A DNA stretch of 64,000 nt from Schizochytrium sp. TIO01 (Eukaryota > Sar > Bigyra > Thraustochytrida > Thraustochytriidae), in assembly GCA_004764695.1 (NCBI GenBank), contig SMSO01000031.1, positions 8,556,761-8,620,760 on the forward strand, read 5' to 3'. Of the stretch, positions 9,775 through 40,228 are shown piece after piece. The notes beneath the pieces are model-generated. The model was not told where the DNA came from. It saw only the letters and a program-made list of their open reading frames with translations, and did no database searches. The translations under genes were made by a program, and so were the position numbers. Each line of letters opens with the position of its first letter. Within the stretch, counting starts at the first letter, position 1.

Positions 9775-12708
9775 ATGGCGCCCGCAAGGCTCTCCTGGGT
9801 GCCGCTAGCGGCGCTGGGAGTCCCTGCAAAGGCCTTGTTTTCCTGGAGGATGACAACCCGAGTCGCGAAAACGAAGTTTACGAGCACTACAATTCGATCC
9901 AAGACTACGCTCTCAAATCCAGTGCAGCCAGGGCCGATGTGGACAACCGAGGGAGCAAGTCTTGTGCTTGTAAGGAAGTCTACAGCAGCACTGCGGAATT
10001 TGGGACTCCATGGCAACGCAAGAGTTGGCAGAACACGATTCGATCGGTGTATGACCAAGCATCAAATGCAGCAGCATCGCCAAACTCATCATGGAAGAGC
10101 TGGCAGGGGACAACATCGATCTGGAAACCGAGAAAACCAAAGCCCTTACGCATGGCTGGAGACGCTGGGCGTAGGGCTGTCTACGCTAGCTTTCGTACCT
10201 TCAATTGACGTAGCCGAACTTGAGGATGTCTCACGTGAGTCACGCAGAATTCGAGCAAGACCTTCTAACGGGTCAGAGTCTGCAGCACTTGTAGGTGAAA
10301 CTGTCACCCTTGAAGAACTCAACTCGAGATATCAATTACAGGCAGTGTCAGCAAAGAGCGATGCGAAGGGTATCGCTCAGGCGGAATTTACCGCCAAAGG
10401 CCTCATTCCGACGCGGTTCGTGCTTGGATCCGGTGCATATGGTCAAGTTGCTAGGGCTAAAGATGTGGTAGGTCGTGATGTTGCAGTTAAAGTGGTGAAT
10501 CGACAAGCAATGGATATCGAGGGCTTGCAGAATGAGGTAGAAGCCCTCACGCTCGCGCGTCGCCACCCGAATGTGACGGAATTGATTGAGGTTCTCTTTT
10601 GTCCAGAGACAGACAAATACTACATCATCACAGAGTTTTGTGGAGGAGGTGAACTCTTTGACAGACTCATTGACAAAGGCCCTTACAAAGAAGCTGAAGC
10701 AGCAAGGCTCATTGAAAGAATCGCCAGCGCGCTGAACTATTTGCACTCTTGTGGTTTTGCGCACATGGACATTAAACCGGAAAACCTTATGTTCTCCGGT
10801 GAATCAAACCAACGAGACGGTGATATTCGTCTCATTGACTTTGGAATGTGCAAAAATTTGAACGAGTACAAGGAAAGCGGTATAACAAAGATGACAAGTA
10901 ATGTTGGCACAACACCGTACCTTCCCAGCGAGATTCTCAAGCACATTCCAGCTGATTACCTGATTCCAATTCATGAAAGCAGTCGCAGCGATGCCGCAAC
11001 CGGTGGGGAAACTGCAGCTCCCAAAATCAAACGCAAAGTCGACATTGAGCTTACTTCAGACCCACGAGCCTGCGATATGTGGGCACTGGGACTCATCATT
11101 TACATTCTCCTCCTTGGTTGTCATCCGTTTGACCGCACTGGAGATGCTACAGATGCTACTATTGCAACCCGTGCCCTTCAAGGAAGTGATACATCCAAAG
11201 ATGATCCAAATGAGAGCCCTGCACGATTTACTTTTAATGTTCATAAACGTTTGCAGCTTTCTGAAGAGGCTAAAGATCTCATTACTCGGTTGCTGGACCC
11301 TAATCCGGAGACACGCCTTAAATCTCATGAGGTAATCAAGCATCCGTGGCTTCAGCAGGCCCGGCGCCGTGCTCTTGCCCAACATCGTTCAGTCATGTCG
11401 AAATGGAGCCCACCCGACTCTAGCGAGGAGAATATGCAAAGCGACGAAGAACCAGAAGACACTCAAGACGCTCTTGAACACGAGACTGTGGCGCATCGCG
11501 CTATATCCTCCGCAATGTTGATTGCCTCTCTCGCAGCACGTGAGACCAGAGATAAAATGCCGAAAGATAGTACCCCAGAAGAGTACTTTCTCAAACAGGC
11601 TTATAGCGTTCTGAAGGCAGCAAGGTGGACTGAAATGGTAGAAGATGTCGAAGTCTCGAAATTATCCTTCCCGGATTTTGCCAAGCTCGTAGAGCAAAGT
11701 CACTCGTTCAAGTATGCCAAGGGCTCTACTATTTTTTCTGAAGGTGATGATGCTGAGGGTGTCTTTATTTTGCTGTCTGGAAATGTGCAGGTTGAGTATT
11801 CCACAGGAAGCCCGGACCTACCTCACCTTGGCTATGGGCACGCAGTTGCCAAACTTCAACCTGGTGACGTTTTCGGCGAGGCTGCAGTTCTTGACGGAAG
11901 AGACTTTCGCAATGCTACTACACGCTGCCTTACGCCTGTTCGTGTTCTGTTCTGGTCAAGGGATGACTTTGTTCGGGTTATCTGCGGTACCAATGCTCTT
12001 TGTATGGGTTTAGAGGAGCATCTCCGGAGCCGTCAAAATCTTAGGGCACGGCGTCTCCTGGAGCAACTAGAGGACGGTGCATTTGTGATGCGTACATTCG
12101 AGCCAGGCGAAAAACTCTATAACCAGGGCGACACCCCGGACATGCTCTATGTTATTCAAGAAGGCGTTGTTGTCACATCCTTTGATCCACAGGAGGCCGA
12201 AGCATCTGCAAACCTTCACCCTGCGGAGAAGGTGCGCAACACTGTTAAGAACTTCATCAGTCAAGTTAAAGGCAAGTTGTCAAACCGAGACGGCGGTTTC
12301 TTTACTGCAGATGCTGGCAAAGTCCCGCCTGAGGCAGGCCCCATGTCGCTGCGACAGTATCAGCCAGGGTCGTTGATTGGGACTGAGGCCATTTCGGGAT
12401 CCCACCGTATTGCGTCTGCTGTCTGCACCACAAAGGTTACAGTCGCAGGTGTTGATCGTTCACGCCTCCTTGGGCTTGCTGCACAAGAGTCTTCTTTATA
12501 CAACACCATTTTGAGGTTATTTCGAAGGGACAATGAAGAAAAGCTTGCTCGACTGCGTGCAGCTTCTGCTGGTGTATATAGAGATCAAGAAGCCTCGTCA
12601 AGTCAAACGAGTGACCTCAACGACCTCGTCAAAGCTGCCGAGCAACAATTATTGCGTCGTCAGAGTATGCATGTGCTGCCACGCACTCCATCTTCCCCAC
12701 GCTCATAA
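9775..12708 (+). CDS. Ser/Thr kinase (CAMK-like) with two C-terminal cyclic-nucleotide-binding domains
   Basis: The open frame encodes 977 aa. The kinase domain spans residues about 214-527: Gly-loop LGSGAYGQV (217-225), VAIK-type Lys239, alpha-C Glu254, DIKPEN, DFG (355-357) and HPW at the C-lobe end. The HRD motif reads HMD (330-332) and APE reads PSE. An insert of about 50 residues (395-430) precedes the F-helix. An acidic linker follows. cNBD1 is about 632-752, with a phosphate-binding cassette FGEAAVLDGRDFRNATT (700-716) that keeps the Gly-Glu and Arg. cNBD2 is about 753-910, with a weaker cassette (GSLIGTEAISGSHRIAS). PKG has the opposite order (cNBDs before kinase). Residues 1-150 are low quality, and overlapping frames at 9744-10210 also read open. 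The true start may therefore be spliced or lie inside; the ATG at 9775 is the first in frame. Confidence 0.85.
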   Translation: MAPARLSWVPLAALGVPAKALFSWRMTTRVAKTKFTSTTIRSKTTLSNPVQPGPMWTTEGASLVLVRKSTAALRNLGLHGNARVGRTRFDRCMTKHQMQQHRQTHHGRAGRGQHRSGNRENQSPYAWLETLGVGLSTLAFVPSIDVAELEDVSRESRRIRARPSNGSESAALVGETVTLEELNSRYQLQAVSAKSDAKGIAQAEFTAKGLIPTRFVLGSGAYGQVARAKDVVGRDVAVKVVNRQAMDIEGLQNEVEALTLARRHPNVTELIEVLFCPETDKYYIITEFCGGGELFDRLIDKGPYKEAEAARLIERIASALNYLHSCGFAHMDIKPENLMFSGESNQRDGDIRLIDFGMCKNLNEYKESGITKMTSNVGTTPYLPSEILKHIPADYLIPIHESSRSDAATGGETAAPKIKRKVDIELTSDPRACDMWALGLIIYILLLGCHPFDRTGDATDATIATRALQGSDTSKDDPNESPARFTFNVHKRLQLSEEAKDLITRLLDPNPETRLKSHEVIKHPWLQQARRRALAQHRSVMSKWSPPDSSEENMQSDEEPEDTQDALEHETVAHRAISSAMLIASLAARETRDKMPKDSTPEEYFLKQAYSVLKAARWTEMVEDVEVSKLSFPDFAKLVEQSHSFKYAKGSTIFSEGDDAEGVFILLSGNVQVEYSTGSPDLPHLGYGHAVAKLQPGDVFGEAAVLDGRDFRNATTRCLTPVRVLFWSRDDFVRVICGTNALCMGLEEHLRSRQNLRARRLLEQLEDGAFVMRTFEPGEKLYNQGDTPDMLYVIQEGVVVTSFDPQEAEASANLHPAEKVRNTVKNFISQVKGKLSNRDGGFFTADAGKVPPEAGPMSLRQYQPGSLIGTEAISGSHRIASAVCTTKVTVAGVDRSRLLGLAAQESSLYNTILRLFRRDNEEKLARLRAASAGVYRDQEASSSQTSDLNDLVKAAEQQLLRRQSMHVLPRTPSSPRS

Positions 12709-13321
12709 ATAGCTCCTTTGTTCAGCTTCTGAGCAAAATGCCAAAAGATCAAAACACTCACACACAAAGGCTCTTAGTGCATGGTGTATGTTTTATCTCC
12801 CTGAATTTTGGTGTGGTCTTTTTCCCAAATGATAAAACCATGTCTGTCTATGCAAACTCTTGCGCAAGCCCCACGTATATGTCTTTTAACTAATATAACT
12901 ATTACTTAGACTCCTCCTTCCAACAATTCACATACTTCACCAAGTCACTTCACTCTCATTTAGGATGTGGTGTATGCTTTGATGCCCAAATTCAGTTTTT
13001 ACTTTTTGCTTTTTTAAGTCTTTAAATCTCATTAATAAGAAAGAAACAAGATGTTGCTTCATTTAAAGATCCGTTGGTTAACTTTATTCATCTTTTTCAA
13101 GATAATATATAAAGATTGTAATGGTACTTTAAAATAAGATCAGAGACTATCACAATCAAAGAACGAAACGAAATATATATATAGATGAAAATGAAAGGTA
13201 GGGATAATAGACTCTAGCTATTGCCATGATCATCGGTAAACTAAAAGCTCTGACAGGTTTTACTTAACAAAACCAAAATTGCGATAGAAATAAGGGAAGA
13301 GCTTTCTTTGGGAAGAGCACG
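12709..13321. other. AT-rich spacer
   Basis: Six hundred bases between two same-strand genes hold the 3' flank of the kinase and the promoter of the EF-hand gene. I see no gene or notable repeat. A short TA run occurs near 13172. Confidence 0.4.
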
Positions 13322-14059
13322 ATGGACCTTGACTTGCTCGGTGGCGAGGAGCAGGTTGCAAAGTATAAGGCAGAGATCCGAGCAATTTTCAACCAGGTCG
13401 ATGTAGATGGTTCGGGATGGATGTCTAAGACAGAGTTTGTCGAGGCTGTCGAGAAAAATCCAAATGTGGCGCAAATGGTAGGACGGTCAAGGCTTTTGGC
13501 AGGGCTTGTGGCGGGAGGTGACCTCGGAGCTGCATTTGAAAGCTTTGACACCGATCGTAGTGACAGTGTTAGCTTTGAAGAGTTCTGGGAGTTCTGCCGC
13601 AAGGAAGCGGATGAAGAAAACATTCGTAAGATGTTCAATATGATCGATCGTGATGGCTCAAGGTATATTACCAAAGCAGAACTCGTGTACGCATTTACAA
13701 ATAACACGGAACTGCTAGAGCTTGTGAAAAACTCAAAGGTCTTTGGACGCCTGATCAAGCAGAGAGATTGGGACAAAGTTCTCGCTGAGATGGACACTGA
13801 CAAGAGTGGAGTTGGTGAGGACAAGGTTGATCTTCCTGAGTTTTGGAAATTTATCAAGAACCTTGCTGCTAGAGTGCAAATCGATATTTTGAAGGAGAAG
13901 GCTCGACAGCAGCGCGAAAAGTACGAGGCAGAAAAGTTTATCTTGCAAGCAGAAATTCGTTCACGTGTCAATACCCACATGAGTGTTGCTGGCGCAGGTC
14001 AGGGAGGGATTATGACCGTTGGTATCGCATATGACCCATTCTCCTACCCAGCAATCTAG
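13322..14059 (+). CDS. Four-EF-hand calcium-binding protein
   Basis: A single 245-aa frame from the ATG at 13322. EF-hand loops are at 27-38 (DVDGSGWMSKTE), 76-87 (DTDRSDSVSFEE), 109-120 (DRDGSRYITKAE) and 158-173 (DTDKSGVGEDKVDLPE). The first three have canonical D-x-D-x-S-x-x spacing with Glu at position 12. The fourth carries a four-residue insertion between positions 8 and 12, so its calcium binding is doubtful. A basic helical stretch (about 186-215, KEKARQQREKYEAEK) and a Gly-rich tail follow. It is a calmodulin-superfamily sensor of unknown target. Its downstream position next to a CAMK-like kinase is suggestive only. Confidence 0.88.
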   Translation: MDLDLLGGEEQVAKYKAEIRAIFNQVDVDGSGWMSKTEFVEAVEKNPNVAQMVGRSRLLAGLVAGGDLGAAFESFDTDRSDSVSFEEFWEFCRKEADEENIRKMFNMIDRDGSRYITKAELVYAFTNNTELLELVKNSKVFGRLIKQRDWDKVLAEMDTDKSGVGEDKVDLPEFWKFIKNLAARVQIDILKEKARQQREKYEAEKFILQAEIRSRVNTHMSVAGAGQGGIMTVGIAYDPFSYPAI

Positions 14060-14294
14060 GTTGCATGTTTTGGCTCTCATCTATCATTGGCTGCTCACCT
14101 GATAGGCTCGATTTTTGAAGCGCGCATATTAGTTTAGAAGAGTCTTCTATTCAGGGGAATTTTATACTCTTATTGTTTACGCTAATACAGGCTTGTAATT
14201 AAAATTGCACCAAGTTGATTTACCAACATGGATTGACACACAAAGTTGGATCAGGAAACCTTCAATTTGGGTCCAACATCGAACCTTTGGGAAG

Positions 14295-14752
14295 ATGGGT
14301 TCCTCCACTGTAGGTGAGACACGTGGCTCTGCTCGACGAGTGCCTCTTCCGTCGCCTTCGGAAACGGCTCGTGTAGGTGCAGAAGAGGATCACATGGATT
14401 CTGAGTTAGCCCATGATGAGCAAGGTTCGAGCTCTACGAGTGGCGGAGCTCTGGAGCTTATTCAAGATTACTGGCACTTTGGGTTCTTTGCGTACGGTGC
14501 GGTGTCTATCATAAGCAAGCAAGAATCAAGTTCCAAGCTCAAGTCTGTACAGATTGTTGCACTGGCCTTGCTTCTAGGCTTCATGTATAAGTTGGAGCGC
14601 TTGTTAAGTCGTAGTGTTTTTGGCCCACTATTTGCGAAATTTTTGGTAACAATGACGAACTCCGTGCCAAGATTGAGAAGGAGGAGGCAGAACTCAGGAA
14701 ACTTTTGCGGGAACACGGCAACAAAGGTGACCGTAAGGCCTTAACAGAGTAA
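14295..14752 (+). CDS. Small single-pass membrane protein, frame broken near 14645
   Basis: Starting at ATG 14295 the frame gives a Ser-rich N-terminus, an acidic stretch, then YWHFGFFAYGAVSII and a hydrophobic segment VQIVALALLLGFMYKLERLL. It then runs into an unnatural basic tail to 14744. A neighbouring frame takes over with a strongly coding-like charged helix, NNDELRAKIEKEEAELRKLL, ending at a TAA at 14750-14752. Either one T is missing from the T-run at 14640-14645, or the 26 nt at 14646-14671 (GTAACA...CCAAG) are a tiny phase-0 intron, giving 143 aa. I do not recognise the family. The hydrophobic segments suggest a membrane-anchored protein with a short charged tail. Confidence 0.55.
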
Positions 14753-15258
14753 ATTTTACTCAACTCACTCCAGCTCTAACAGGTCAAGTCCGATTGCGCA
14801 ATATGTAGATATGGATCAAGCTTTACCGTCCATCATTTGATGCCCATGCAAGATCAACATACCACGTTGTAAATGAGCAGGAGAAGAAAGACACGTTCTT
14901 TTAAAAACAAGACCTAACTGGGACTGCCACATATGATGCAGCGGACAAACGTCAGGTCGGACGCAAATTGTTTTCTTTTTTTTGTTTGGCTATAATTATT
15001 TTAATCGCGGAAACTTGTGTTGGAATAGGTACTTATGAAACTTGGACAAAATCATCGGGGGGGAAATGCGAGAGAATTTTCTGACCATGTTTGTCCACGT
15101 AAGAGACATTTGTTTCAATTGAGCGCCATGGTCCTGATCTTGCGACTGAACAATGGCTTGTTATTGATAGCTCCTTCAACCAATACCGACACTGATGTGA
15201 CTGGAGGCACAGAATTGCGATGACAAAATATTTGAGTTGTCACTGGTTGTAGCGATTT
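14753..15258. other. Spacer between convergent genes
   Basis: Five hundred bases of 3' flank shared by the small membrane protein (+) and the aldolase gene (-). No gene, repeat or RNA was recognised. Confidence 0.4.
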
Positions 15259-16586
15259 TTAGCGGTCCACAAGACGCTTGAGGGCAGACCACTCGTAACG
15301 TCCAGAGGGAATGATGGCTGTTTTTATTGGATTGCGTGTAACAAACACAAATGAGAATTTTAAACAAAAGTAACCGAATGTCATTAGTTTCGCAACTTGT
15401 TAGTTTTTTCCAACTCCATTTACAAAAGTGTTTAGAAGGGCACTATCTTTTTAAAGAGATTGCCTCTCTTGAAAACAAAGACTCTATCAGGATAACTTAC
15501 TCTCCATCTGTTGCTGGGCGTGTTGCAAAAGATCCGGGCTGCACTCGATGAGCTTGCTGCCGGTAGCCATGGCATCAAGCTGCACACGGCAGCAACGGTC
15601 CAAGTAATAGGTGCGCACAAAGGCCTCCTGGATGGAGCGGCCGACGATGGTTGCACCGTGGTTCTGCATGATCAATGCGATACCATCTTTGCCAAGGTTG
15701 CGGGCAATGCTCTCCTTCTCCTCATCGGTGCTGTGCATACCTTCGTACATGTGGTAGCCGATACGGTTGTAGAAGATAGCGGCATCCTGAACCAGAAAGC
15801 GGAAGGGCTCCTCGATGCAGGACATGGCCATGATTGCCGGAGTGTGGATGTGAATGATGCAGCGCACATCCGGGCGGGCGGCATAAATACCACTGTGGAT
15901 GACGTTTCCGGACTCCTGGATGGAGTCAAAGACAAAGTCGTACTCACGAACCTCGGAGAAGTGCATACCACCCGGGGTAATGAGGTAGGTGGAGGAGTCT
16001 ATCGAGCGAGAGATTAAATACGTAGAGAAGAAAATCAGAAGTTAGACACGGGGAAGAAATGCGACCCGCAACATAAGAAGAAGCCATTTGAACTGCGCTG
16101 TTAGCCAACCCTGTTAAAAATGTAACATTAATAAGTAGAGCATGAGAACTGCTCAACAATAACACACCTTCCGAAGAAGACGAAATGAAGCGTATACTAA
16201 TTTTCAAACGTACCAAGGTCGCAGCAGTCCTCCTCATCCTCCTCGCCACCACAGCGGCTTGAGATGTGGTTCCAGGTGAGATCATCCCAACCGTAGTGGG
16301 CCACAAGACGGTGAGCAGTCTTGAGGTCAGAGCGGATCTCGGACTCAGACTGAGCAGGCACAGCATAGAAGATGCGGTCAGCCATGCTCTTCTGGTTGGC
16401 TCCAAACGCAGAGGCATCAAGGGTGGCCTTCTTGATCATTTCACGCTGAGGGCCAGACATCATCCTGGGGATTCTGTCATCCTCAAAGCCAGAGCCGCCA
16501 GCAGCAGAGGCCAGGCCACGCTGCACCATCTTGGGCATGGGTCTGGCAGAGGCTTGGATGCCCTTGGAAATACCGTACATCATCAT
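15259..16586 (-). CDS. Class II aldolase/adducin-family protein, three exons
   Basis: Exons on the minus strand are 16214-16586, 15501-15998 and 15259-15317. The introns are 215 nt (donor GTACGT, acceptor CGATAG) and 183 nt (donor GTAAGT, acceptor AACAG). The joined frame gives 309 aa. Class II aldolase signatures are in order: WNHISSR, YLITPGGMHFSEV, SGIYAARPDVRCIIHIHTPA (zinc-binding HxH), the third His in NHGATIVG, and the final EWSALKRLVDR on exon 3. The fold binds a divalent metal and covers sugar-phosphate aldolases, epimerases and the adducin head; substrate cannot be assigned. Adducin neck and tail regions are absent. The N-terminus (GISKGIQASARPMPKMVQRG) is basic and free of acidic residues, so mitochondrial import is possible. 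Three ATGs stand in tandem at 16586-16578. Confidence 0.9.
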
Positions 16587-19500
16587 TGTGTTTTCTTGCA
16601 AATAAGTTCTAAAGCCTGCTTCAAGTATTGATATGAGAAGTGAGTGAAAACCCAGGTAAATCAAAATAACAAGGTACAGAGCCGGTTTTCGCAGTGCATC
16701 AATTGACAGCAACACATCAATATCCACGCCGGCAATTCCACCGCCCGAATTTATCGTTTGTTCGCCGCCGTTCAACACAGGTTAGTGCACGCACACGCAG
16801 CCAAGTTAGAAACCCGCTTCGTCAAAACCCTCTTCGTTAGCCTTCCTTAGTCACTCGAGCAACTTCAACTCCGCAGTCAAAAGCCGTGCCAATCGGCGAC
16901 TCCACCGCATGCCGTGTCCAGATGGACATACGGGCATACAACGACGTACCTAGCGAGTGGCTCTAGCAAGCTTTTCGCGCGCCTCTCCGAGCGCAACGTC
17001 TCCAGTCCCGCTGCTGTGCGGCACTTCAGAAGCGCTTCTGTTTGTCTCGATCCTCAAAGCAATTGCATCACCGGTGAAACCTGCAACTTCCTCAGATATC
17101 CCGAACCCCGAAAAGCTAGTTTCACCGAGCGTGCTCTGTCTTTTTTCTTTTTTGTTGATGGAATATTTTCTTTTTTTGACAATGATGTTGATGATGACGA
17201 TAATGACAGCTGATCAATATGATGACGATGGTGTTCTTCTCGCGCTTTTTATGGCTCTCACCGACATGCAAAGTTGAAGCGCATAAGCTAAAGAGTGTGA
17301 CTAAAGAGCCAAAGCGGTGCACGGCTCTAAGTTCCCCTGATGACTCTTAGGTGACAGCGCACTATTTTCTAATTGTTTTCCTCCCTTTCGACAGAAAGAA
17401 GAAATAATAAATAATAAATGAGTGCTTTTTTCTGCTTTGATTAATATTTCCGTGTCCGGCGCTTTTCCTTCGGGCTTCAAATAGCTTCAGTTAGAGCTGA
17501 TTCCTCGTGTGAGTAGTTAGGTGCCCATCGTTTCGCGACCAAGCCAATGGACATTCAAGGCCACTCGACACGATCACGTTTCTCGCCCTTTACAATTTCC
17601 TTTGGAGTGTTTCATAGCTAGTACAAAAGTCTGTTTCTAAGCTGGGTTAGTGCAATGTAATGTACACCTATATTGAAGTGCTTCAATTCGGATAACCGGC
17701 TCCGCAATCGGCGACATTTACATTTCGAAGAGTCTGCTTGCGAGGATAAACGCAAGTTGCGCAACTAAGTGGGACCGCGATGGAGCAATGGATTCCCACA
17801 GCAGTAATGCAACAACTCTCGTCCTCGGCGCCGAGGTTGAACAGAACTCGGGTTCGGCATTGCCGGTGCTGTGTTTTCGTCGATTGCCGAATTCCGAAGT
17901 GTCGCGAGTTTCATTCACCTCGAAATTGGGATTTCAAGCTGCGAGTCAGAGGCAAGCAATGCCAGTTCATGAGACTTTGCAGCATGATGTAGATGTCTAT
18001 TTATATCACAGTCTGGAGGCTGTGTTGCCATGTCAGTAGCTTAGTCATGCGTTGGCAAATTCATACATTCTTCTAAGTTGTGGTGAATCTATGGATGTAC
18101 CCGGGTGCTCCTGGTAACTCGTCTCTTTCGGAATAGAATGCTTCTCGAAGCTAGCAAACACCAACGTAGACATCAACGTAGACTCAGACATAGAGACTCG
18201 TTACGTTTCGATTCATCGCGTTTCGTTTCGTTCGCTGACTTATATTGGTTCACCACTACCAGAAGGAGAGTCACAACAAGATACACTAAGCAGTAGATGG
18301 TAGCATGTACCTACACGTCAATAGCAGCAACAACAAATTGCAGCACGACCGTTGTCTTCAACTTGTAATCTTCGCCGATGATGCTTAGACCTTGTGCAAA
18401 TTGTTTTGCTCATTCAAGAATTCCAGCGTCCATTTCTTTCTTGCCACACGAAGTAATTTGCTTAGAATAAATAGCTTAGATTTTCGGTTCGTAGTATAAT
18501 AGAGGAATTGTCACTTGTTTTCTTGCTCGCCCAAGTTTTAGTAGCCCAGAGATATGCTGACATGTGTGTAGAGTCACGACTAAGGAGATTTGGGAGCGGC
18601 AGCTCGGTATCAGGTAGCAGATGTCAATTGCGTACCTTCTATAACTGCTCGCGATTAGTGCGGGGCCTCCCTCATATTTACATTCATTGCACAATATATG
18701 ATTAACTTGCAAGAACTTCAGGTCATTTGTGTGGACCGCCGTCATCGACAAATTGCATCGCAACAGCACGTGACTGTAGAGATGGTTGGCATTGCGAACA
18801 TGTTCTACAACTATAGCCTCGTTTCTTGTGGAGGCTCGCTGGTTCTGCAGTTTTAGCTTTGTTCTTAAATAACCTATAAGCTATAGAGCTGGGTGGCATT
18901 CTGTATGAACATTTATATTTATTTATCTTGAGGGATTCAATCTTTTGTGGTGGTCATCAACCACCAAGGAAGTTCTTGGCGAGTTGAATGGAATTTGTGC
19001 ATGGCATCTGGGTCTACGTAGCGCAATCTGCCTTGCTTGCTTTTGCACACATTCTTTTATAGATCCAACTCTCCTTCACCAAGCGACGCTTACATCAAAC
19101 GATACCGCAGACGCATGGATAGAATCCACATCATCAATGGCAATAGGTGTGCCGGAAGAACTAGAAAATTTAAGGGAAGTTCTTCGTTACACTGTCAAAA
19201 GGTGCTAATCTTCATGCCTGTCATTGGACCTCTTGTCTAGCCTCTCCGAAGTCTTACTTTTGTATATGTCTAGCCCTTAGTCCACTCTCACTTTTTATAT
19301 CCTTGTCATCATTTCGTACTGCCCTGGGCCCTTTGTTACAGCTCTCCAAACTTGCGTGCTGCGCAGGCGGTCTCACGATTTTACCTAAGCAAAACTACAG
19401 CACACCCTTAGCTCGTCCGCGACGCTTGAAGAGTCCATGACTTCGAATGATCATGTTGTAACCCTTGTCCCAGAATACCGAGGACGTGGGTATGATACCT

Positions 19501-22251: not shown

Positions 22252-22348
22252 AAAGTAAAGTGATAAAGTAAAGTAAAGTAAAGTAAAGTAAAGGAAAGGA
22301 AAGTAAAGGAAAGGAAAGGAAAGTAAAGGAAAGGAAAGGAAAGTAAGG
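22252..22348. repeat. Pentanucleotide repeat (AAAGT/AAAGG)n
   Basis: About 19 near-perfect 5-bp units, first AAAGT then mixed with AAAGG, lie 230 bases upstream of the TPR gene's start. A palindromic AGCTAGCTAG cluster follows at 22395-22418. Confidence 0.9.
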
Positions 22349-22575
22349 CAACTTGCGAGGCAAAGTAAGACAACAAAGCAGTCGAGGGAAAGAAAAGCTA
22401 GCTAGAAAGCTAGCTAGCAAAACCCATCTGCGACCAGGAGGAAGTCCATTCTTGTCGCGCATCACAGCACAGCAGTTGAGGCGGCTGCGTTCTGGGATTT
22501 CATCTTGAGGTTGACTGATCTTGGTGTGTGTTGTCTTCCGAGCGATCTGTCTGATCCTTTTATTCACTTTGCACC

Positions 22576-25588: not shown

Positions 25589-26312
25589 GCAGTTGCTGTT
25601 TTTCCTACTTTCGCTGCTCTGCGTCAGCTACTTTTGCTACTTCTACTGTGTCTGCTGAGTTCGCAGTGCTGTTAATTCTCTTTGCGATTGCTTAATAAGC
25701 TAATGATATTTGCTTGCTCTCATACCACTCAACCCCAACCTCTGCCACCCAAAATTATATCACTTGTTACAACCCTCATAGTACCTTGGCTGCACTGAAG
25801 AAAAACCGTAGCGGCAAACTTACCTCTTATATCAAGCATGCCTTTCTGTATAAACTAATACAATCAACACTACTACAGTCGTTCTTTCGACTAAGAACTT
25901 TACATACTGCTAAACAACCTCACAAACACATTACAAAGGGATCTGGCCTAAAGAGCTGGCTTAATACACTGCTCCTTTCCTTGTCAGTGATTATTTGTCA
26001 GCGTCATTCGGTCGTACCTAATTTGCCTATTTTAATTTATTTTTAATACCCAACTTTCATATAATAAATAGGAAGATATACATTATCTGTTGTGACCGTT
26101 ACGAGTTTGTAGTACACACCTTGTTGTTATTTCATATGCTATACGGCAGAAGCCAAAATATGACAACAAACTCTTTGTCGAGGATATACTGGCGCCCAGG
26201 TTGTAAAAGCATATTGACAGTGATTTCGTGACTGCATGAAAAGGTCGTCCGCAGTGCTTGAAGAAGTAGAAGCCACAAGGAAATAAAAGGCTTTGATATA
26301 AATTGAAGAACA
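25589..26312. other. Divergent intergenic region, no gene recognised
   Basis: About 720 bases between the divergent 332-aa gene and ARMC2. A 110-codon open frame at 25714-26046 is Ser/Thr/Leu-rich without domain character and is probably chance. Confidence 0.4.
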
Positions 26313-28667: not shown

Positions 28668-28946
28668 TTCTGAACTGCTCGTTCTTTTAGTCTTCATTAT
28701 AAGTAAAGTATCATTTTGCGCACTTCGGTGATGTGACCCATTCCCTTTCTCTTCAACCTTTTGCTTCCTTTTTATTTTGAAAATATCAAAAAAATTAAAT
28801 AATAAATAATAAAACAGGAAATAATTCATCCGTGTGACGCCTTCCATAGCACTTGGTACGCTTCTTAAGTTAAATCCTAAATATTGCATTTCCGTCTTTT
28901 TTTTTTAAATAATCTGACTTTAGGTAGGTTGTCAAGGTCAAGTAAT

Positions 28947-30377: not shown

Positions 30378-33344
30378 GCTTTCAGCATGGTTTTGGAGAG
30401 ACAGTGAAGTCGCTATACCCCCTATGTATGCAAATGCTTCAAACCCGTGCAACAACTGGCTGCTTGCAACTCGAACTTAGAAGTTTTGTTTACTTTTATT
30501 GCATTCCCATCTCATACATTAGCAACAGGCATCATGTTTAATAGCTTAACGGTACCTTTTCTTAGCCCTTATAGCCTTTATAGCCCCCTTACTATACTTC
30601 CTAGGTACCTAGATACTACAAACAAAAATTATTTGCTGATCCTATTACGACTAGAAGAAAGTATGATTGACTACTTTAGAATTAGGATGACATCAGTTTG
30701 AAGAGGAGGCAAACGTCCTTCAAATACATTTGCAACCTACTATATCTCAAGTTGTTGAAAAGCAGTGCCCCGAATGATAAGATTTATAGCGAGAATAACT
30801 ACAGTGAGTCCTTCTACTAAGGGCGAGAAAAAAAAAGACATGTTTATATACTCCTCATTTGTGGAGGATCTGTATATGCTTAATAACGACAGCAATTCAA
30901 CAGATTTTGTTGCAATGGAATTTGAAGTGTTATCTTTGCAATATAAACAAGTTAGAAATTTTACTTAGAATATTAGAACAACCCAAAACAAACCTTTGCG
31001 TGAATTTGAAAGGCTTAGGCACTTCTCAGTGTTTATAGTCCTCACTAATCAGCAAAATGGGAGCTCGCACCGCATGGCCAACCCAATCAGACTCCCTGAT
31101 GTAAACTACTCTACTCTATCATATAGCGAAAATATCCTCTTCTTAGCGCCCTTTGCTCGATACCCAAATTCCATTAGTTACCTCATGATTATGTTTTATT
31201 TGATGTAGCAGAGTTACGCATATTCATGTTGAGTCCAACTTTTCGCCCTATGGAGGAATCTCGAAACTTGATTGTCTTCTTCTCTTAACTTTCCAAGACA
31301 CTTAGAGAAAACCTTTGTCTAATCAACAGAAAAAGGATAAGAGTGATTTCAAAGTAGATAAAGACAAAATGTCCTGGTCGGAGGTCAGCATTGCCCGAAA
31401 GTCCAGCCTTTTCTTATAGAAGCTTCTCAAATTGCTTCCTGTTGGAACTGCTTTTGTCACATGGTACTTAAGCCAAGCATCGGATTAAACTGGTCGAACT
31501 TGGAGCTATTGAGCCGAAACACGATGCTTGGAAACACAGCAGAAGGCTCACGCGAATACCATAATGTTACCTAAAAGAAGGTTTCATCGTCTCACGCCCT
31601 GGCACACGCGCAAACATTTTTCTTTTTCGCGTGAAAGCATTTGTTCTACCGGTTGTTCACAAGTCTTCCTGCAGCCTGGGAAAGTATTTGTTGGGTTTAC
31701 GAGTGTGGTTTGAGTCTTCTCGCTCATGGACTCATCAGATTGTAGATGCCTAGCAGCTCTTATATGATACCTTCCTTTTTGCATAAAATCCATTTTTTAT
31801 TTTTAAACAAACAAACAAACAAACAAATAAACAAACAAGCACATGAACATGATGTAGCGTGTAATATATTTTAGTGCAACTTTATGTGTTGCCGAAACCA
31901 TATGTTGTATATTAGTAAGGACTTGGAGAGTTTCCAAGTCTCTCAAATTAGATTGCTCGTTGAAGAATTCCTCATTCTTAGATGATGGCAACTTTTTTTC
32001 TTTGAAATTACGTCACTTGGAATTGCGACAGCTATTTGCAACCACTAGGTCAATTCATGTAAACACTTATAGTCAATTATAAAGAGTCGCCTACTTACGT
32101 GCATGACTAACAAAATATTTTTTTGTGCCTTTTGAAAGTCTTATTTATACCTCTAACCATAATATAGTGCTAGTATACAACATGGAGAAATCCTAAGAGA
32201 TCCGTTGAATGACAAACACGATTCTCGGTTTCCCGTCTGATGGATGACTAAATAGTATGAACGAACGTGAGGAGAACACGTGATGAGCTACTATATATAT
32301 TAAAAGCCCATCCAGCGTGGAGATATTGCTTCGTGAAATGCGTTGCTTTTGAAAGAACTTTCCCAGATGAACGAACGAATGAAGACACAATCAACTTTGT
32401 TCATCACAGAAAATAGATGTAGAATAAGAGTTAGTAGCCTTAATAGGAGTGCTCAAAATATGTTTGCAGCTGGCATGTTAAACAACTTATTGGCTATATA
32501 GAAGCAGATTCGCGGACTACTGCTTCTAGGAAAAGCAAACCAAAGCCATCCCCTCTGTTTCAGAGGTCTTATCGCAATGTTTTCAAAGCAAGAAACTAAC
32601 GCTATGAAGAAAGGTTGAATTTACAAGACCCTGTAAGGAAGCTTTTATGAAAGAGATAAACCTGTGAACCGTGGCAGCCCCACCAAAAAAATGGATTTTT
32701 ATTTCCTCTTATGAGAAGTTTAGCCGGCGTCTGTTATTTCCTAATGTACACAACATGTCGATTTTGATATAATTTGGTATTACTCTTTGCATATATACAG
32801 AGACCTTCCATACGACAAATCTGTCGGGCGCTTTTTGCCAAATATGTTTCTTCATTGCGGGCGTCTGGCTTTTCACCAGAAACCTGAATGGTAATCGAAT
32901 TCACAAACAAACTGCGATGACGACAATGCCCAGTGTACATTTAAGTGATCATGTGAAAAAGCTTCGTTGCTTCTAGATTCAGCCGTACGCTTCATGAGCG
33001 GAAATGAAGAGCCCGCCAAAATGGATTCCCAGGAAGAATGATGTCCTGGTCAAGCGTTTCACAAGTCTGACATTTTAGGGTATATATGTTTCCTCAGGAT
33101 TCCTTGCGACGATCATTTGCAGCAAACCCGAATTGTCAAGTATCTCAGAGACGACCTGAGAGTCATAAGCCGTTTTGGATTCTGCTAGGTTTTTGCTTGT
33201 ATAGGGTCCCAATACTGAAAGGTATCGAGATTACAAATATAGCAAGGAGTAGCTGGCTGTAGTTGGCTCTGGAGAGAGTTGACGAGACAAAGGCTGTTGT
33301 TTCACAGGCCTTAATTTTTGGTTGCATTTTTCGATCTAGTTGAA
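30378..33344. other. 3-kb AT-rich intergenic region, no gene recognised
   Basis: Contains only short open frames without family character. A tandem CCTTATAG/CCTTTATAG motif lies near 30565-30585. No RNA gene was recognised. Confidence 0.4.
31805..31839. repeat. Tetranucleotide repeat (AAAC)n
   Basis: About nine units of AAAC with one AAAT variant. Confidence 0.85.
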
Positions 33345-34211
33345 ATGGAGGTTCTTCAAGAGGGGCGTTTTGCCCGCGTGATTCGCTCCAAATCGCCAAA
33401 CTCTGGGGAAGTTGTTGCTGTGAAACTATACAATGAAAGTAAGCGTGCTCTTTCTGAAGCTGCTGTTGAGATCGAAGTTCTTGAGCGCCTGACTCATTCG
33501 GACATTGCGCCATGCCGTTTCATCATCCAGTTAAAATATGTTCGGAAACTCGAAGGTTCTTGCTCTTCTGCAGTAGCTCTTGAATTGTGCGATGGAGGTG
33601 ACTTGTACGACCTCATGCACACCGTTCAACTAGGACACCAAGATGCTCTTCGGTATTGTGCTGAAATTGCGATTGCCCTGGAACATTTGAGGCTTCATAA
33701 TATTATTCATGGCGACCTAAAGCCAGAAAACATTGGTGTAACTTCTCGCGGCCATCTTCGTTTGTTAGACTTTGGTTGCTCATCCATTGTTAGTGCTGAG
33801 AATCCTCGTGCCATGCAGACATCTGGTACATTAGAGTACACTTGCCCCGAAAAACTATTCCGTAAAGCTGCAAGCTTTGAAGCTGACTGGTGGAGTTTGG
33901 GTGTAATTCTATATGAAATGATATTTGATGCACAACCATGGACATCTCCTACTCCGCAACGTACAGCACAAAAAATATGTGAAGACCCAGTTCCATTTCC
34001 TCGTGCAGATGCGAATGACCATGTGAGCACTGGTATTATTCAAGCCATATCTCTTTTATTGCGAAAGAAACGTAAACATCGTTTAAGCTGTCTTGCCGAG
34101 CTCCGTTCGACTGCCGTCTTTGGACGTCTCCGGTGGGAGCAGCTATTACATGAGGATTGGATTCCCCCCGTATTTCATGGAGCTCGTGAGCACGAGGAAT
34201 CCAAGCAATGA
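33345..34211 (+). CDS. AGC-like protein kinase, HGD in place of HRD
   Basis: 288 aa from ATG 33345; the frame extends upstream only to a non-ATG codon. The Gly-loop is degenerate (LQEGRFARV, only the middle Gly kept). Lys27 (VVAVKL) and the alpha-C Glu (about 42) are present. The catalytic loop is IIHGDLKPENIG (HGD 122-124), followed by DFG (142-144), GTLEYTCPE replacing the APE box, and DWWSLGVILYEM typical of AGC kinases. The end RLRWEQLL..DWIPPVF matches the start of the AGC tail (FxxIDWxxL...PPF), but the hydrophobic motif is missing. Catalytic Lys, Asp and DFG are all present, so activity is likely despite the missing Arg. It closely resembles the genes at 36516 and 38894. Confidence 0.88.
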   Translation: MEVLQEGRFARVIRSKSPNSGEVVAVKLYNESKRALSEAAVEIEVLERLTHSDIAPCRFIIQLKYVRKLEGSCSSAVALELCDGGDLYDLMHTVQLGHQDALRYCAEIAIALEHLRLHNIIHGDLKPENIGVTSRGHLRLLDFGCSSIVSAENPRAMQTSGTLEYTCPEKLFRKAASFEADWWSLGVILYEMIFDAQPWTSPTPQRTAQKICEDPVPFPRADANDHVSTGIIQAISLLLRKKRKHRLSCLAELRSTAVFGRLRWEQLLHEDWIPPVFHGAREHEESKQ

Positions 34212-36515
34212 TTTTTGTTCTCGTATATTATATATAGATTGTTATAGGTTATTGTACATAAGATATGCTTAGATTTGAATTGAAAACGGAGTTGTACTTA
34301 TTTCTTTGCTTATACGAAGTTGTGGTTAAAAAAACGTTTACTCTTTGATAAGTACACAGAACGAGGGTTTAAAGTAAGAGACAACTTTAAGTTAAATTGG
34401 AAACGAAACTTGAAGAAGTTGAATATTTTATTAATTTCTTTCTAGAACGTTGATATTATTAGAAGGGTTCTTGATTCTTTGTAATAGTAGAATGATTTGT
34501 TTCAGCATGTACATGATATTTGGGAGGACTCAAGCTCCGAAGATTTGATTTCTCGAACGAAAATTTAAAGCATTTATCGAAGAAAAGTTTGCAATTGGAT
34601 CAATATTTGAATTTATTTTACGAAGCTTTTGTTTCAAAATGTATTTTCCATGTGCGAAAATGTCTCGAACGCAAAAAACAGGGAAGAAGAACATCGTACA
34701 GCATACAATCAAGCAAAAACTAATGTAGATAGCACCAGCTTTCGAATGGTGAGGGTCTCTCTAAAATGATGTTTTTATAGAGTCTACCACTAGACAAAAT
34801 TAGTGATTCAAATTAACGATTGCTACCACAATATTTCTTCCCTCTATCGTTGATCAAACTGCTTACTTGGACCAAATTGCTTTTTTGTTCAAAAGTAGCC
34901 TTGTGGTTGGATTTTACGTATTCAATATCAAAGAAAAGGAATTGGCATATGTATCAGCGCTGACAGTTATCGAGCATTGACAGAGACTTAGTTCGACTCA
35001 GTGTAATAGAACATGAATCATGAGGAGTGTGTTTGTTGATTTTGTTGGAAGCGCTGGCACTTCGCTGGAAGCGCGCTAAAGCCTGCGAAAGCTGGGAACG
35101 TATTTATATAGCGTGGCGTATACAGATTTTTAAGGATGTCATCTAGCCTCTAGTTCTCTTCTTCATGTCCTGCGTAAGAAAATAAGTTATTGATAAAACT
35201 AAAATACAAGATGTTATCGTGACAGATAGGATGGATTTGAAATGATCTTGTGAGCGACACTATAAACGTTATGACACTATGAAATATAACAGATCATCAT
35301 ATTGGATTTAGAATCCATACTCTTTAGAAATCATTAGCGCACAAACAATAAGGTTGAAAACCTGTTATCAATGCAGGTAAAATCGCTTTGGTCAGGATGC
35401 ATTTATTATGTAAAGTATTCAAGTTCCCAACCTTGCATAGACCGAAGTGGCGTTTCTAAACAATCCATCGGACCGAGAATAACCCCGTCCAGCTCCCGAA
35501 TACTTTATTCTTTTGAGCCTATTTTCTTTACAAGTCCAATTCCTCCCCACAACATCACAAACAGTGAAAGCAACCAGCCTTTCATTCACACTTAAAATGC
35601 TTTGTAAAACCATTAACAAGTACAGTAGATTTGCAACGGGGAAGCAACTTAGGGAGAATGTTGCTTCTCATCATTTCTCGTATCTGCTTTGGGTCGATGT
35701 AGTGTGGGCGTTTCACGCTGGCACTCAAATCCATTGATCTCGTAATATAAACCAACCAACCCACTATCTCACTCGTACTGAATCATCTTTTTTTAAAAAT
35801 AAAAAATTAAACGATAATAAATTTATAGTTGTAATACTTTTCTAGTTGATACCCTATCTACGTAAACAGCGTAACAGGCTAAACGAGATTTGAGGGCTGG
35901 TCGAGCAAGAAAGCTGTATGCTCTCGAATGGACTCAGCAGGTAAATCATCATCTGAAGGGGTGAACTAAGACATAAATCTTAATGATTCATCTAAGTGTC
36001 TCTCTATGTTTGGAGAAACAAAAATAGAATTCGAAACGAAACACTCAGGTTGAGGAAACTACTTTAGAGGCCTTCACTGTTGGGAGGTGCACAGGATTGT
36101 CAAGAAGCTTTTGCCAACAATTAGAGCAGCTCCTTGGGGAAATAAATTTCTGAAACTTTAACACTGTAGGGAGCACCCAATTTCAAATTTCCTGCAGGCA
36201 CTGGTCCTCCATCTTCTTGGCAGAACCACACATAAAGCACTTCACCACTTCGGTTCTCCTCTTTCAACCTCGCAGTGATTCTTTTGTTTTGTTTTCTTAA
36301 TTAATTATATATATTTTAGTTAATAGGGCGCCCTATGTTCCTCTTAGCCTAATCGCCGTGTTTCCTTGTAAACAATAGTGTTTTGCATAACATTCAACTT
36401 GAGAAAGCTTTTACATTGCAACAAGCAAAGCAAACCCGCATCCAAGCTCAGATAGGGTCCAGGCAAACCTTGCATAGCATAAGCTAGATCACGCGGCGTG
36501 CGATTTTGAGATTTT
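34212..36515. other. Intergenic region, no gene recognised
   Basis: About 2.3 kb, AT-rich, between two kinase paralogues on the same strand. I searched for an upstream exon carrying the missing N-lobe of the following pseudokinase and found none. No RNA gene or strong repeat was seen. Confidence 0.4.
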
Positions 36516-37358
36516 ATGGCAAACTTGAAGAATGCCGATGAGGTCTTGTACCCATGGGTTGGACGTTCAACTTTACGACGCCGTGTTGAAAGACGAGACT
36601 CTCTGATTGCCACAGAGATATCAATATTAAACTCCCTTCAAGCTGCACAAAATGAATGCCAGTTTTTAATTCATTTCGAGCTAGCAAAAGGCGGGGACGG
36701 TAATCACATCACTGCAATGGAAATATGCCATGGTGGAACGTTGGACTTACTTATGAGCCAAAAGAGTCTAAAAGAGCCTGAATGTCTTATGTACTTTGCA
36801 GAGCTAGTTTTGGCTCTTGACCATCTGCGAAAGCATAGAATTGTGCATTGTGACCTTCGGCCAGACACCATCGGTCTGACCTCAAATGGGCACATCCGGG
36901 TGATGGATTTTGAATATGCTGTTCTTTGCCCTAAAGAATGGTGTCAAATTCAAGGAGAACCAGCGACAAATTGCATGTATGCTAGTCCCGAATTACTTCG
37001 AGATGGGAAAGTATGTCTTGCCTCTGATTGGTGGAGCCTTGGCGTTATATTGTACGAAATGCTGTTTGATACTTTGCCTTGGTATGCTAAAGATGTGAAG
37101 GAGCTGACAACCAAAATTTGTAACGAACCTCCAACGGATGCTCGATCTGAAACTTTACGCACGACTTCCTCCAAGAAACTTGTGCGAGATCTACTCCGCA
37201 AAGATCCTCTAAGTCGTTTACAAGACCTTGAAGAAGTCACTTTCGTGAGCGTTTTTAAAAACTTAGACTGGAATGCAGTAAGAGAGGAAAGTTGGTCCCC
37301 TGCTACTCGTAGGAAGTCAAGAATGGGTACTAGCAAATATCAGAGCTCGACTTGCTAA
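36516..37358 (+). CDS. AGC-like pseudokinase (N-lobe truncated, HCD, DFE)
   Basis: 280 aa from ATG 36516. The C-lobe clearly aligns with the neighbour at 33345: RIVHCDLRPDTIGL for the catalytic loop, GHIRVMDFEYAV for the metal-binding loop, MYASPELL, ASDWWSLGVILYEML and FKNLDWNAV at the end. The N-lobe begins almost at the alpha-C helix. There is no Gly-loop and no VAIK Lys, though Glu34 in IATEISIL is kept. HRD reads HCD, the Asn of DLKPEN is replaced (DLRPDT) and DFG reads DFE. Loss of Lys, Asn and the DFG Gly predicts no ATP phosphotransfer. The frame is intact over 840 bases, so this is a maintained pseudokinase rather than a decayed gene. A missing upstream exon remains possible. Confidence 0.85.
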   Translation: MANLKNADEVLYPWVGRSTLRRRVERRDSLIATEISILNSLQAAQNECQFLIHFELAKGGDGNHITAMEICHGGTLDLLMSQKSLKEPECLMYFAELVLALDHLRKHRIVHCDLRPDTIGLTSNGHIRVMDFEYAVLCPKEWCQIQGEPATNCMYASPELLRDGKVCLASDWWSLGVILYEMLFDTLPWYAKDVKELTTKICNEPPTDARSETLRTTSSKKLVRDLLRKDPLSRLQDLEEVTFVSVFKNLDWNAVREESWSPATRRKSRMGTSKYQSSTC

Positions 37359-38893
37359 TAATGGGGGTAAAAATCATTACTTATAATCTATGGAAGAGGC
37401 TTCTCGAGAATACGTGTATGAGTAAAATCGATACTATTTTCTGAATACTCTTTCTGTATGTTGTTAAGGATTGACATACTATGCTGCCTGATCTTCACAT
37501 ATATTCCAACCATATGAATTTCTATGTACTTAAAAATCCAAACAGTTAAGTTAATACAATATAATAGAAGCTTTATTCGCAGAAATACATCACTTTTGTT
37601 GGTGACAGGAAGACTTATCAACATCAAGATATTCATTTTGATTTGTAAACAGAATGTCACCTTGAAAGTTTTAAAACCTGGATGTTCATGCCTCCATAAT
37701 GTAATTGCGGAAAGGTCATGGTTGAGAATCAAGGTATGCCGATTTTCAACAACCGCCCGATAATTACATTAGCTTTCTCGGAGAAGGATTGTAGCTGCGT
37801 TGTTTAATGACCATAGTTGTTAGGGAATGACTGCGTTGAAACCTTCATTGTTTTTGTGCAAATAGCGACAACGTTTGCCACTTACTATGGTAAAGTATAT
37901 TCGGATTTTTGTTTTGTTTGTGCATGTTTCAAACATGGAACATTTGATCAAACTGAAAATAGTGCCAACACCTCTGTATGCCATATTCAGTGTATATTTA
38001 TCCCATCTCCGATTGTCTGTTGTTGAGCAATTTCGAGCATGGGTTATGTCCTATTTCCTATGAATCGGGGAGCTTCCCCAAGGTCAGCAAATCATGAACT
38101 TGGCAAGGCTGAATATGCGATGCCTTCTTAAATTTTATCATGCATCTCAGCATCTTCCCAGTCAAGCTCTGGCTGATCAGGGGTTAGCTTTGAGTAGTAT
38201 TGAATGTACCCAGATGTACGCCTTCAGGGGATAAGGTATGTTAAGCGCTGAGGTTTGCGGTAAAATCAGCTGGAGAGTTAGTGACAAGATGAAGAACGTG
38301 TGTTTAACGCTTGAAGAAGATTTGGAAAGACTGTCGTTGGATTGTCTAAACTTGGGTTTTTAGCCCTAGCACTTTGCTGAACCTGCGAGGTAATTAGTAA
38401 TATGGAGTGATTCGTATCGTCTTTAGTACACGACGATCCCTTGCCCTATAGGCTATTTTTTTGTTGGATTGTTTATCTCTAGAGTCTTGCGAATAATTTA
38501 TCATTTAAAGTTTCTCCTAATTTTTAAATTCTTTTGGAGATTTCTATGAACTCTCGTAATCTTGTTTGGCTCCAGAAATTCTTCTTCGAGTGTTCTACAG
38601 TTCCGCGTAAGCATGTCTTTGTTGTCCTTCAGATGAGAGAGTGGCACACTAAGGAATATCACGATGCCAAGTATACCATCGATTGATTGTGACAATAGAC
38701 ACTGGAAGAAGGGTGGATGAATGATAAAAAATGAAAATAAATGGCGATTGAGGAAAATGTTAAACTGAAAATATATTACGTGCATATAAATGTAGTGATG
38801 TGTATGATAATAGTGTCACAGGAGTTTTACCTCAACAACAAGTGTTGGGAAGGTTAAATGGAATCATAATTATACACAACTAAGCACGAGGAT
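37359..38893. other. Intergenic region between convergent kinase genes
   Basis: About 1.5 kb, AT-rich. Several open frames under 115 codons occur on both strands, none with coding character. Confidence 0.4.
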
Positions 38894-40228
38894 TTACTCG
38901 GCCTGAAGTGAAAAGGGGGGGAGATAAGCTTGCTCGGAAAGACGGAACCAGTCAATACAGTTGAAAAATGGATGCTGGCGAACCTCGTCAAGGCCACTGA
39001 TGTATCCAAGCCGGAGAGTTCTTGACTTTGTCAGAAGTCTTCTTACAATATCCCAATCAATTGATTTGGTGCTGATATCATCAGCGCAAGGGAGCAACGG
39101 TGCACGGCATATAAGCTCGCAAGTTGCTTGTACATCGTCTTCAGCCCAAGGCCAGGTCCCATAAAGCATTTCGTAGAGCAGAACACCAAAGCTCCACCAG
39201 TCAGACTCTTTTCCGTGTGGTGCTCGGCACAAAATCTCGGGTGCGGAGTAGTAAATGGTACCTGCGCCCGTAGTGACCTCAAGACGGCCGTTGGATGGGT
39301 TTGGGGTACCTTCTTCATCCAGAAAGACAGACAAACCAAAATCGAGAAGACGAACATGTCCACTGGCCGTAATTCCAATATTTTCTGGCTTGAGATCTGC
39401 ATGAAGAATATTGAAGTTATGCATATGCTGAATTGCAAGTGCAATTTCCGCGGCATAAAAGGTCACATCGGTCAGTGACAAAAGGTCTTGATGTGCTAAA
39501 AGAGAAAATAAGTCACCTCCCTGGCAGTACTGCATACCAAGGGTAACTTGGGTTTCGTCCTCCATTGTAAAGTACAAGTCGACGATGAAAGGCGAAGCGG
39601 CAAGTTTGCGCATGACTCGCATTTCAGTTTCGATTTGTTGCACGTTCTGTTTGGAATTTTTCTGTCTGCTTTTAATAACAAATTCACCGCCCGATATATC
39701 CATGAGGCGAGTTACAAACTTCTCTTTGTTAATACCGTGAAGAATGAGGTCAACTTGTGGAGGCATATGTACATCATCCTTCGTTTGATGGGCTGGTACA
39801 GAGCAAGATTCCTCATTCATTAGAAGAATTTCCTCTTGTTCTCTTTTATGGCAGCCAGTGCTGTTAAAATCCTGTTGGTGGGACTGTAGTTGATGTTTAG
39901 TTTGAGCTTCGGAAGTTGTATACAAGCTAGTGCAGTAATGGTGCTTTGGATTTGTCTCTGTGTCGCTGATTTCTTTCACGTTATCGCAAGGGTTTTCCCA
40001 TTCTTTGCTGTTTGGTGTTTCGTCACTTAATGAAGCATCGATGCTACTGAAGTGTTCGTGTTGCTGCTGTTCTATTGACCTAACTGGAGGTAGGCAAGGA
40101 GGTTGCGATTTACCCAAGGTTGCACCAGTTTTTGCATCTGAAGCTATTATTGAATCTACAGTGAACGCATGGGCCACGAAACCAAACTTGTCTACTGAGA
40201 GCAGAGTTCGGATCTCAGCGTGTGGCAT
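38894..40228 (-). CDS. AGC-like protein kinase with long N-terminal extension, HAD in place of HRD
   Basis: 444 aa from ATG 40228-40226; the open frame upstream has no ATG. Residues 1-160 are low-complexity and His/Gln/Ser-rich. The kinase domain covers about 160-425. The Gly-loop is not recognisable (LHGINKEKFVTRL). FVIK gives Lys186 and the alpha-C Glu lies near 200-202. The catalytic loop is ILHADLKPENIGI (HAD 276-278), with DFG 296-298, GTIYYSAPE and SDWWSFGVLLYEML. The end, HPFFNCIDWFRLSEQAYLPPF, is the classic start of an AGC tail, then the protein stops before any hydrophobic motif. It is a paralogue of the kinases at 33345 and 36516 and points toward them, consistent with local duplication and inversion. 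Confidence 0.88.
   Translation of the reverse strand: MPHAEIRTLLSVDKFGFVAHAFTVDSIIASDAKTGATLGKSQPPCLPPVRSIEQQQHEHFSSIDASLSDETPNSKEWENPCDNVKEISDTETNPKHHYCTSLYTTSEAQTKHQLQSHQQDFNSTGCHKREQEEILLMNEESCSVPAHQTKDDVHMPPQVDLILHGINKEKFVTRLMDISGGEFVIKSRQKNSKQNVQQIETEMRVMRKLAASPFIVDLYFTMEDETQVTLGMQYCQGGDLFSLLAHQDLLSLTDVTFYAAEIALAIQHMHNFNILHADLKPENIGITASGHVRLLDFGLSVFLDEEGTPNPSNGRLEVTTGAGTIYYSAPEILCRAPHGKESDWWSFGVLLYEMLYGTWPWAEDDVQATCELICRAPLLPCADDISTKSIDWDIVRRLLTKSRTLRLGYISGLDEVRQHPFFNCIDWFRLSEQAYLPPFSLQAE

Follow-up and report, generated by a model that had tools for sequence, protein, structure and literature searches.

Kinase genes of the window

We examined a 64,000-nucleotide stretch of the Schizochytrium sp. 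TIO01 genome (contig SMSO01000031.1, here C30; C30:8556761-8620760, hereafter the window) for its protein kinase genes, all of which lack the arginine of the HRD motif in the catalytic loop, and searched the whole genome (64 Mb, 37 contigs) for their relatives. Translation of the window gives four full loops, HMDIKPEN, HGDLKPEN, HCDLRPDT and HADLKPEN, in genes that we name 9775, 33345, 36516 and 38894, with the codons ATG, GGC, TGT and GCA respectively at the position of the Arg (hereafter x). The absence of the HRD Arg from all of the window's kinases, as read in the original prediction, thus holds. Each loop keeps the catalytic Asp of subdomain VIb with no Arg before it, and all four are non-RD kinases by definition. 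A six-frame scan for catalytic-loop-like and APE- or DWW-like motifs found no fifth kinase in the window, although a loop split by an intron could escape such a scan.

The 9775 gene (9775..12708, plus strand, 977 aa) encodes a CAMK/CDPK-type kinase domain (PF00069, 2.9e-53) followed by two C-terminal cyclic-nucleotide-binding domains, of which one stretch passes as a profile match (PF00027, 5.4e-28) and the second was recognised by eye. Its loop, with Met for the HRD Arg, spans residues 330-337 (10762..10785, plus strand; from translation and codons). The first cyclic-nucleotide-binding domain, placed by its profile match at 11710..11982 (plus strand), has a phosphate-binding cassette, FGEAAVLDGRDFRNAT, that looks intact by eye; the second, downstream, reads by eye as lacking the FGE. 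The best Protein Data Bank (PDB) matches of 9775 are calmodulin-domain protein kinases, which we take to be apicomplexan, and at E 0.001 the gene has no match to the EF-hands that mark the C-terminus of a CDPK. It departs from CDPK and CaMK kinases in reading HMD (HLD in its paralogue) for HRD, and in an insertion past the activation segment, seen as a gap between two aligned pieces. The combination of a kinase with cyclic nucleotide monophosphate (cNMP)-binding domains likens it to CDPK/CaMK kinases and to oomycete cNMP-binding CAMK and AGC kinases; the Phytophthora infestans kinome has such kinases of both groups, along with clustered kinase genes and a predicted inactive share of 9% (PMC3019232). 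At E 1e-20 there is a single close paralogue, C31:3490671, which is 49% identical, of the same architecture, and has weak EF-hand matches between its kinase and cNMP domains; the next matches fall below 45% over half the domain. The N-termini of 9775 (window 9775-9950) and its paralogue are Arg-rich and acid-poor and have, by eye, the look of mitochondrial presequences.

The remaining three genes are AGC-like. The 33345 gene (33345..34211, plus strand; loop by translation at 33708..33731, plus strand) has DFG and a Gln at the activation-loop Thr position, and the 38894 gene (38894..40228, minus strand; loop by translation and six-frame scan at 39380..39403, minus strand) has DFG, the activation-loop Thr and an N-terminal extension of ~180 residues. 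Neither appears to carry the AGC C-terminal tail. Both were assigned by translation, profile, tree, residue table and stop position, with a PDB match in addition for 38894, and in both the residues expected of an active kinase (VAIK Lys, alphaC Glu, HxD Asp, Asn and DFG Asp) can be read. This is not so for 36516 (36516..37358, plus strand; translation, tree, residue table), which belongs to the same clade as 33345. Its degenerate loop (36846..36869, plus strand; codons, six-frame scan) has Arg for the catalytic-loop Lys and Thr for the Asn, DFE stands for DFG, and the glycine loop and VAIK Lys are unrecognisable; neither turned up when the 400 bases upstream were read in their three frames. 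With these further losses of catalytic residues 36516 is, judged by its predicted protein, a pseudokinase, and its HCD is to be read as the loop of one.

The AGC-like non-RD clade

A protein search with 33345, in which the best 135 of 321 candidates were scored, points to an AGC-like non-RD clade of 18 genes on seven contigs, 15 of them reading HGD, two HAD and one HCD. The 13 top matches after 33345 itself are all non-RD members, and after them an FRD gene (C4:1764618) and YRD AGC genes come mixed with the rest of the clade. Nine members lie within 244 kb of C30, at 8457533, 8479372, 8545587, 8590105, 8593351, 8595672, 8633004, 8696684 and 8701025, and nine elsewhere (C35 1390479 and 1394447; C31 2728529, 3799054 and 6821684; C32 1032684; C34 2322185; C33 595668; C13 6742920). 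The member at C31:3799054 (L074) has a broken frame and is counted as the eighteenth on similarity alone; immediately past the HGD loop its kinase domain (C31:3799000-3800000) passes from one frame into another, through an intron or a frameshift.

We placed these genes in a tree of a hand-picked sample of the kinome, with the residue at x masked. Of 60 extracted domains 57 were used, the others being L074, L047 (wrong loop extracted) and L006 (the same gene as L025). A single branch (71/86, not starred) sets the 17 AGC-like non-RD rows apart from all others and recurs in 68% of bootstrap trees; these rows group with the FRD gene at 98/90 (starred), and a wider group of 23 rows, made up of these 17, five YRD/FRD AGC genes and one other, stands at 97/94 (starred). 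Resemblance to the kinase domains of the AGC group (PKA/PKG/PKC/RSK) is thus seen in the tree, as it is in the best PDB match of 38894, the only one of the three AGC-like genes so searched, which is to ribosomal protein S6 kinase alpha-3 (E 5.4e-45). Within the clade a seven-gene sub-clade (97/96, starred) holds C30 cluster genes only, 33345 and 36516 among them, and the nearest sequence to 38894 is the dispersed HAD gene C31:6821684 (48%). The 9775 gene and its paralogue form a starred pair among CAMK-like kinases, and by the approximately unbiased (AU) test a single clade of all four window kinases is rejected (p-AU 3e-55).

The original prediction had stressed that four kinases carry four different substitutions. 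The letters do differ, but 33345, 36516 and 38894 belong to one clade, and four independent losses of the Arg are not supported. Four letter changes at x are placed on the tree among AGC genes, the RD ones included. A single base change turns a Gly codon into either of the Ala codons (GCA, GCT) or into the Cys codon (TGT), and, taken with the tree, this means that one loss of Arg to Gly, with later single-base steps from Gly to Ala and from Gly to Cys, would suffice for the letters of the AGC-like genes.

Parts lost and parts kept in the clade

In the sequence of the C-lobe the clade resembles AGC kinases such as PKA, S6K and the N-terminal domain of RSK: its activation segment closes with GTxxYxAPE, DWWSxG is present, and the domain finishes with IDW...PPF. 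The clade differs from them in having H-G/A/C-D for Y-R-D, a degenerate glycine loop and neither C-tail nor hydrophobic motif; the equivalent of Thr197 is gone in one sub-clade and its partners His87 and Lys189 are gone in most members (PKA numbering). The Y/F-R-D loop typical of the group is absent from every one of the 17 rows, the AGC Tyr being replaced by His in all of them, with Gly at x in 14, Ala in two and Cys in one (L074 also has Gly). Of the glycine-loop residues, Gly50 and Gly55 occur in 0/17 rows, two of which are gapped there, and Gly52 in 8/17. At the positions that share the activation-loop phosphate in PKA, His87 is His in 2/17 and Lys189 is Lys or Arg in 5/17, compared with 3/4 each in the YRD genes. 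In the seven-gene sub-clade the residues at Thr197 are Y, H, H, H, H, Q and E, the E coming from 36516, where the alignment is doubtful; each of the remaining ten rows has T or S there.

The clade genes also end early. In the 16 of 18 whose stop was seen (two run off the fetched stretch) it falls 94-122 aa past DWW, where the kinase domain ends; the distance is 167-185 aa in the three RD AGC genes for which a stop was seen. As read from the DNA, the AGC tail and its hydrophobic motif are absent from the clade, unless a spliced exon has been missed.

These losses invite the reading that the three AGC-like genes of the window are decaying copies in a local cluster, and that loss of the Arg is a symptom of pseudogenisation. 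Several catalytic residues are indeed gone from 36516, and L067 (NFD), L072 (Asn to His, DFA) and L073 (DFD) are likewise changed at a catalytic residue or at DFG; in addition, a TAG lies inside the match of the cluster copy C30:8696684, though an open frame of 299 aa spans its kinase domain. Most members, however, have the catalytic Lys, Glu, Asp, Lys, Asn and Asp, and 33345 and 38894 retain all six in open frames (the alignment's Lys column is misaligned for 38894, which reads FVIK, and may be so for L073). Conservation of the Gly extends to members on seven contigs. In ten AGC pairs synonymous sites are saturated throughout and nonsynonymous divergence is 0.25-0.50, so that although dN/dS is not computable the divergence is old and protein change has been held back. 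We consider decay of the three genes quite unlikely.

Mean pairwise identity within the clade is 33%, yet the share of Gly at x (14/17) is reached by only 45 of 268 columns, the residue being spelled GGT, GGC and GGA. By these sequences Gly at x is an old substitution that has been kept, unlike what drift or ongoing relaxation would leave. A structure model of 33345 (mean pLDDT 66.6, from a three-row alignment) is too weak for use.

The HRD position across the genome

Another way to view the window is against the kinome as a whole, tabulated by HRD position as the original prediction had proposed. We counted loops with DNA patterns for [H/Y]xD[LIVMF]KPxN, separated by codon at x and each paired with a control; loops split by introns are missed in this count. 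CGN codons gave 108 matches (control 0), A/G/T-first codons 99 (control 2) and CHN codons 9 (control 1), and the 108 matches of the latter two kinds comprise 15 AGR Arg codons and 93 non-Arg. The non-RD share is therefore 93 of 216 HxDxKPxN loops (43%), with ~3 expected by chance from the controls; protein sequence was read for part of the 93, and at least one, C13:1080614 in a frame of 72 aa, is such a chance match. Loops outside the KPxN form gave no excess, with 79 matches (AGR Arg included) against 83 for a reversed-pattern control, by a pattern that took A/G/T-first codons at x and after the Lys and did not cover C-first codons at either; three members of the AGC-like clade are among these matches (C13:6743055, C30:8457872 and C30:8697134).

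Given this fraction, and because the four genes are two families and not four independent draws, a window with four non-RD kinases out of four is not improbable; by our arithmetic the chance of a two-family non-RD draw is ~0.43 squared, near 0.2. A single clade of all 38 non-RD rows of the tree, which the original prediction had named as support alongside a non-RD share far above the usual minority, is rejected (AU test, p-AU 3e-21). Expansion of non-RD kinases, the second of the two explanations first offered, is supported, but in several families.

The first explanation was lineage-wide relaxation of activation-loop control, such that selection on the HRD Arg would have weakened across the whole kinome. 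Non-RD kinases are usually a minority of a kinome, and a share of 93 in 216 far exceeds this; parsimony over the 57-row tree also counts 7 changes between RD and non-RD. Conserved kinases, however, mostly keep the Arg, and non-RD loops occur mainly in divergent families. Among the best 127 of 468 PF00069 candidates (132 rows; the window kinases are not among the 127), at least 93 domains have an RD loop and at least 8 a non-RD loop (seven of KPxN form and one HMDVKLDN), with 26 having neither among the matches listed. By family the 93 non-RD loops divide into 38 from a family of kinases with a Cys-rich domain, 13 from the AGC-like clade and a mixed rest of 42, so that the two expanded families (51/93) mainly account for the excess. 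In the AGC-like clade, moreover, the replacing Gly is itself conserved. We regard relaxation across the kinome as most improbable, and conclude that the non-RD state of the window, where three of the kinases are neighbours from one old family and 9775 is unrelated to them, reflects family expansions rather than a genome-wide loosening of kinase control. A raw non-RD fraction such as this one can stem largely from a few expansions.

The larger of the expanded families lies outside the window. A family search (61 matches) gave ~38 genes in which a kinase domain with the loop HCDIKP[EADS]N is followed on its own strand, no more than 1.5 kb downstream, by a Cys-rich C-terminal domain. The open frames are mostly ~900 aa, and the members read have DFD for DFG (e.g. 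L046, L053 at C13:13302-19325, and L056). Eighteen of the loops are identical in DNA, and dN/dS over three close pairs is 0.17-0.21. By eye the Cys-rich C-terminus is RING/RBR-like; in three members scanned no RING or IBR match rose above the Pfam cut-off, with one zf-RING_5 at E 9.3.

Discussion

We think it probable that two unrelated non-RD families meet in the window, that the AGC-like clade has left phospho-switch control of the PDK1 type, and that 9775 is a CDPK-like kinase controlled by its own cNMP domains. Control of 9775 would most simply be exerted by cyclic-nucleotide binding to these domains. For the AGC-like clade, we propose an ancestor in which Y/F-R-D became H-G-D, the glycine loop degenerated, most other phosphate-holding basic residues were lost, and the C-tail and hydrophobic motif disappeared, followed by a radiation that would have taken place partly as the nine-gene cluster around the window. 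Neither docking of PDK1 nor phosphorylation of the activation loop would then serve as a switch. Gly tolerates the left-handed region of backbone space, and at x it may let the HRD loop keep its strained, left-handed backbone with no contact to a phosphate. Members with their catalytic residues would have constitutive or partner-driven activity, probably weaker; the seven-gene sub-clade would additionally have lost the phospho-acceptor Thr, and some members, such as 36516 and C30:8457533, became pseudokinases that would act only as binding or scaffold proteins.

Several observations weigh against this interpretation. A Thr or Ser remains in 10/17 rows, with the Lys189 and His87 residues kept in five and two, so that some members could still be phosphorylated and held in that state; indeed EFR, though non-RD, is regulated by activation-loop phosphorylation (PMC8463890). 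On DNA alone a spliced tail exon is possible, and downstream of where 36516 stops there is an in-frame FSEYSF, set among additional stop codons. A single origin of the non-RD clade is favoured, not proved, by the tree, since the FRD gene (L070) may lie inside it. Although RD, L070 is without the three loop glycines and the His87 and Lys189 residues (its tail ran off the fetched stretch), and because it shares these losses they are not tied to loss of the Arg; the glycine loop and pocket may have gone first and the Arg later. Together with the 26 best domains without a listed loop, the FRD gene slightly lowers our confidence.

The control of AGC kinases is held to have at its core the docking of PDK1 on the hydrophobic motif and an activation-loop phosphate held by the HRD Arg. 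An old, constrained clade that lost the tail, the Arg and in part the Thr together would amount to a natural experiment on how these parts depend on one another, and the conserved Gly at the position of the Arg offers a testable structural substitute.

Kinases of the IRAK and RIPK types are non-RD kinases of animals, and it could be supposed that the missing Arg is the mark of a set of immune-type signalling kinases, as in pattern recognition in plants and animals. Like EFR and the LRR-XII receptor kinases, the clade has a small residue (Cys, Gly) for the HRD Arg and is locally expanded, and each of the two expanded families has many copies, some of them clustered. It is unlike them in belonging to the AGC group and not to IRAK or the receptor-like kinases (RLK), and no receptor or ectodomain was seen in the AGC-like frames; in the four window frames, which are AGC-like and CAMK-like, we found no ectodomain, transmembrane segment or IRAK/RIPK-type kinase. 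We hold an immune role to be very unlikely. A broader proposal, which we find unlikely, starts from an 18-gene clade that stayed under selection after shedding its whole phospho-switch, from the HRD Arg, the glycine loop and the phosphate pocket to the hydrophobic-motif tail and, on one branch, the acceptor Thr. With the independent ~38-gene non-RD kinase/RING-like family it would make up a set of kinases and pseudokinases free of phospho-switching, which might serve in sensing self and virus or microbes and would be convergent with the non-RD kinases of plant immunity. Expansions of non-RD kinases with Cys or Gly are already known in plants (PMC4982124, PMC4295470), and in Citrus C or G occupies the position in >95% of the LRR-XII non-RD members (PMC4982124). 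Neither the tail-less HGD AGC clade, nor AGC non-RD kinases, nor a thraustochytrid kinome was met in the literature searched, which is weak evidence given a limited library.

Further non-RD kinases

Non-RD loops are ordinary in DYRK, CLK, MLCK/DAPK and Wee1, and among sequences read from the mixed rest of 42 there are a DYRK-like HCD kinase and several TKL-like HFD, HMD and HGD kinases (labels by reading). L058 (C13:1701980), a 1403-aa frame with the non-RD loop HCDIKPQN, has by eye the look of an IRE1-type kinase-RNase. Four of the 42 are carried by C1 (289 kb) and C2 (275 kb), two small contigs with a GC of 0.31-0.40 in the fetched parts (L009-L014 and L039-L042; single frames read); both contigs may be viral or episomal.

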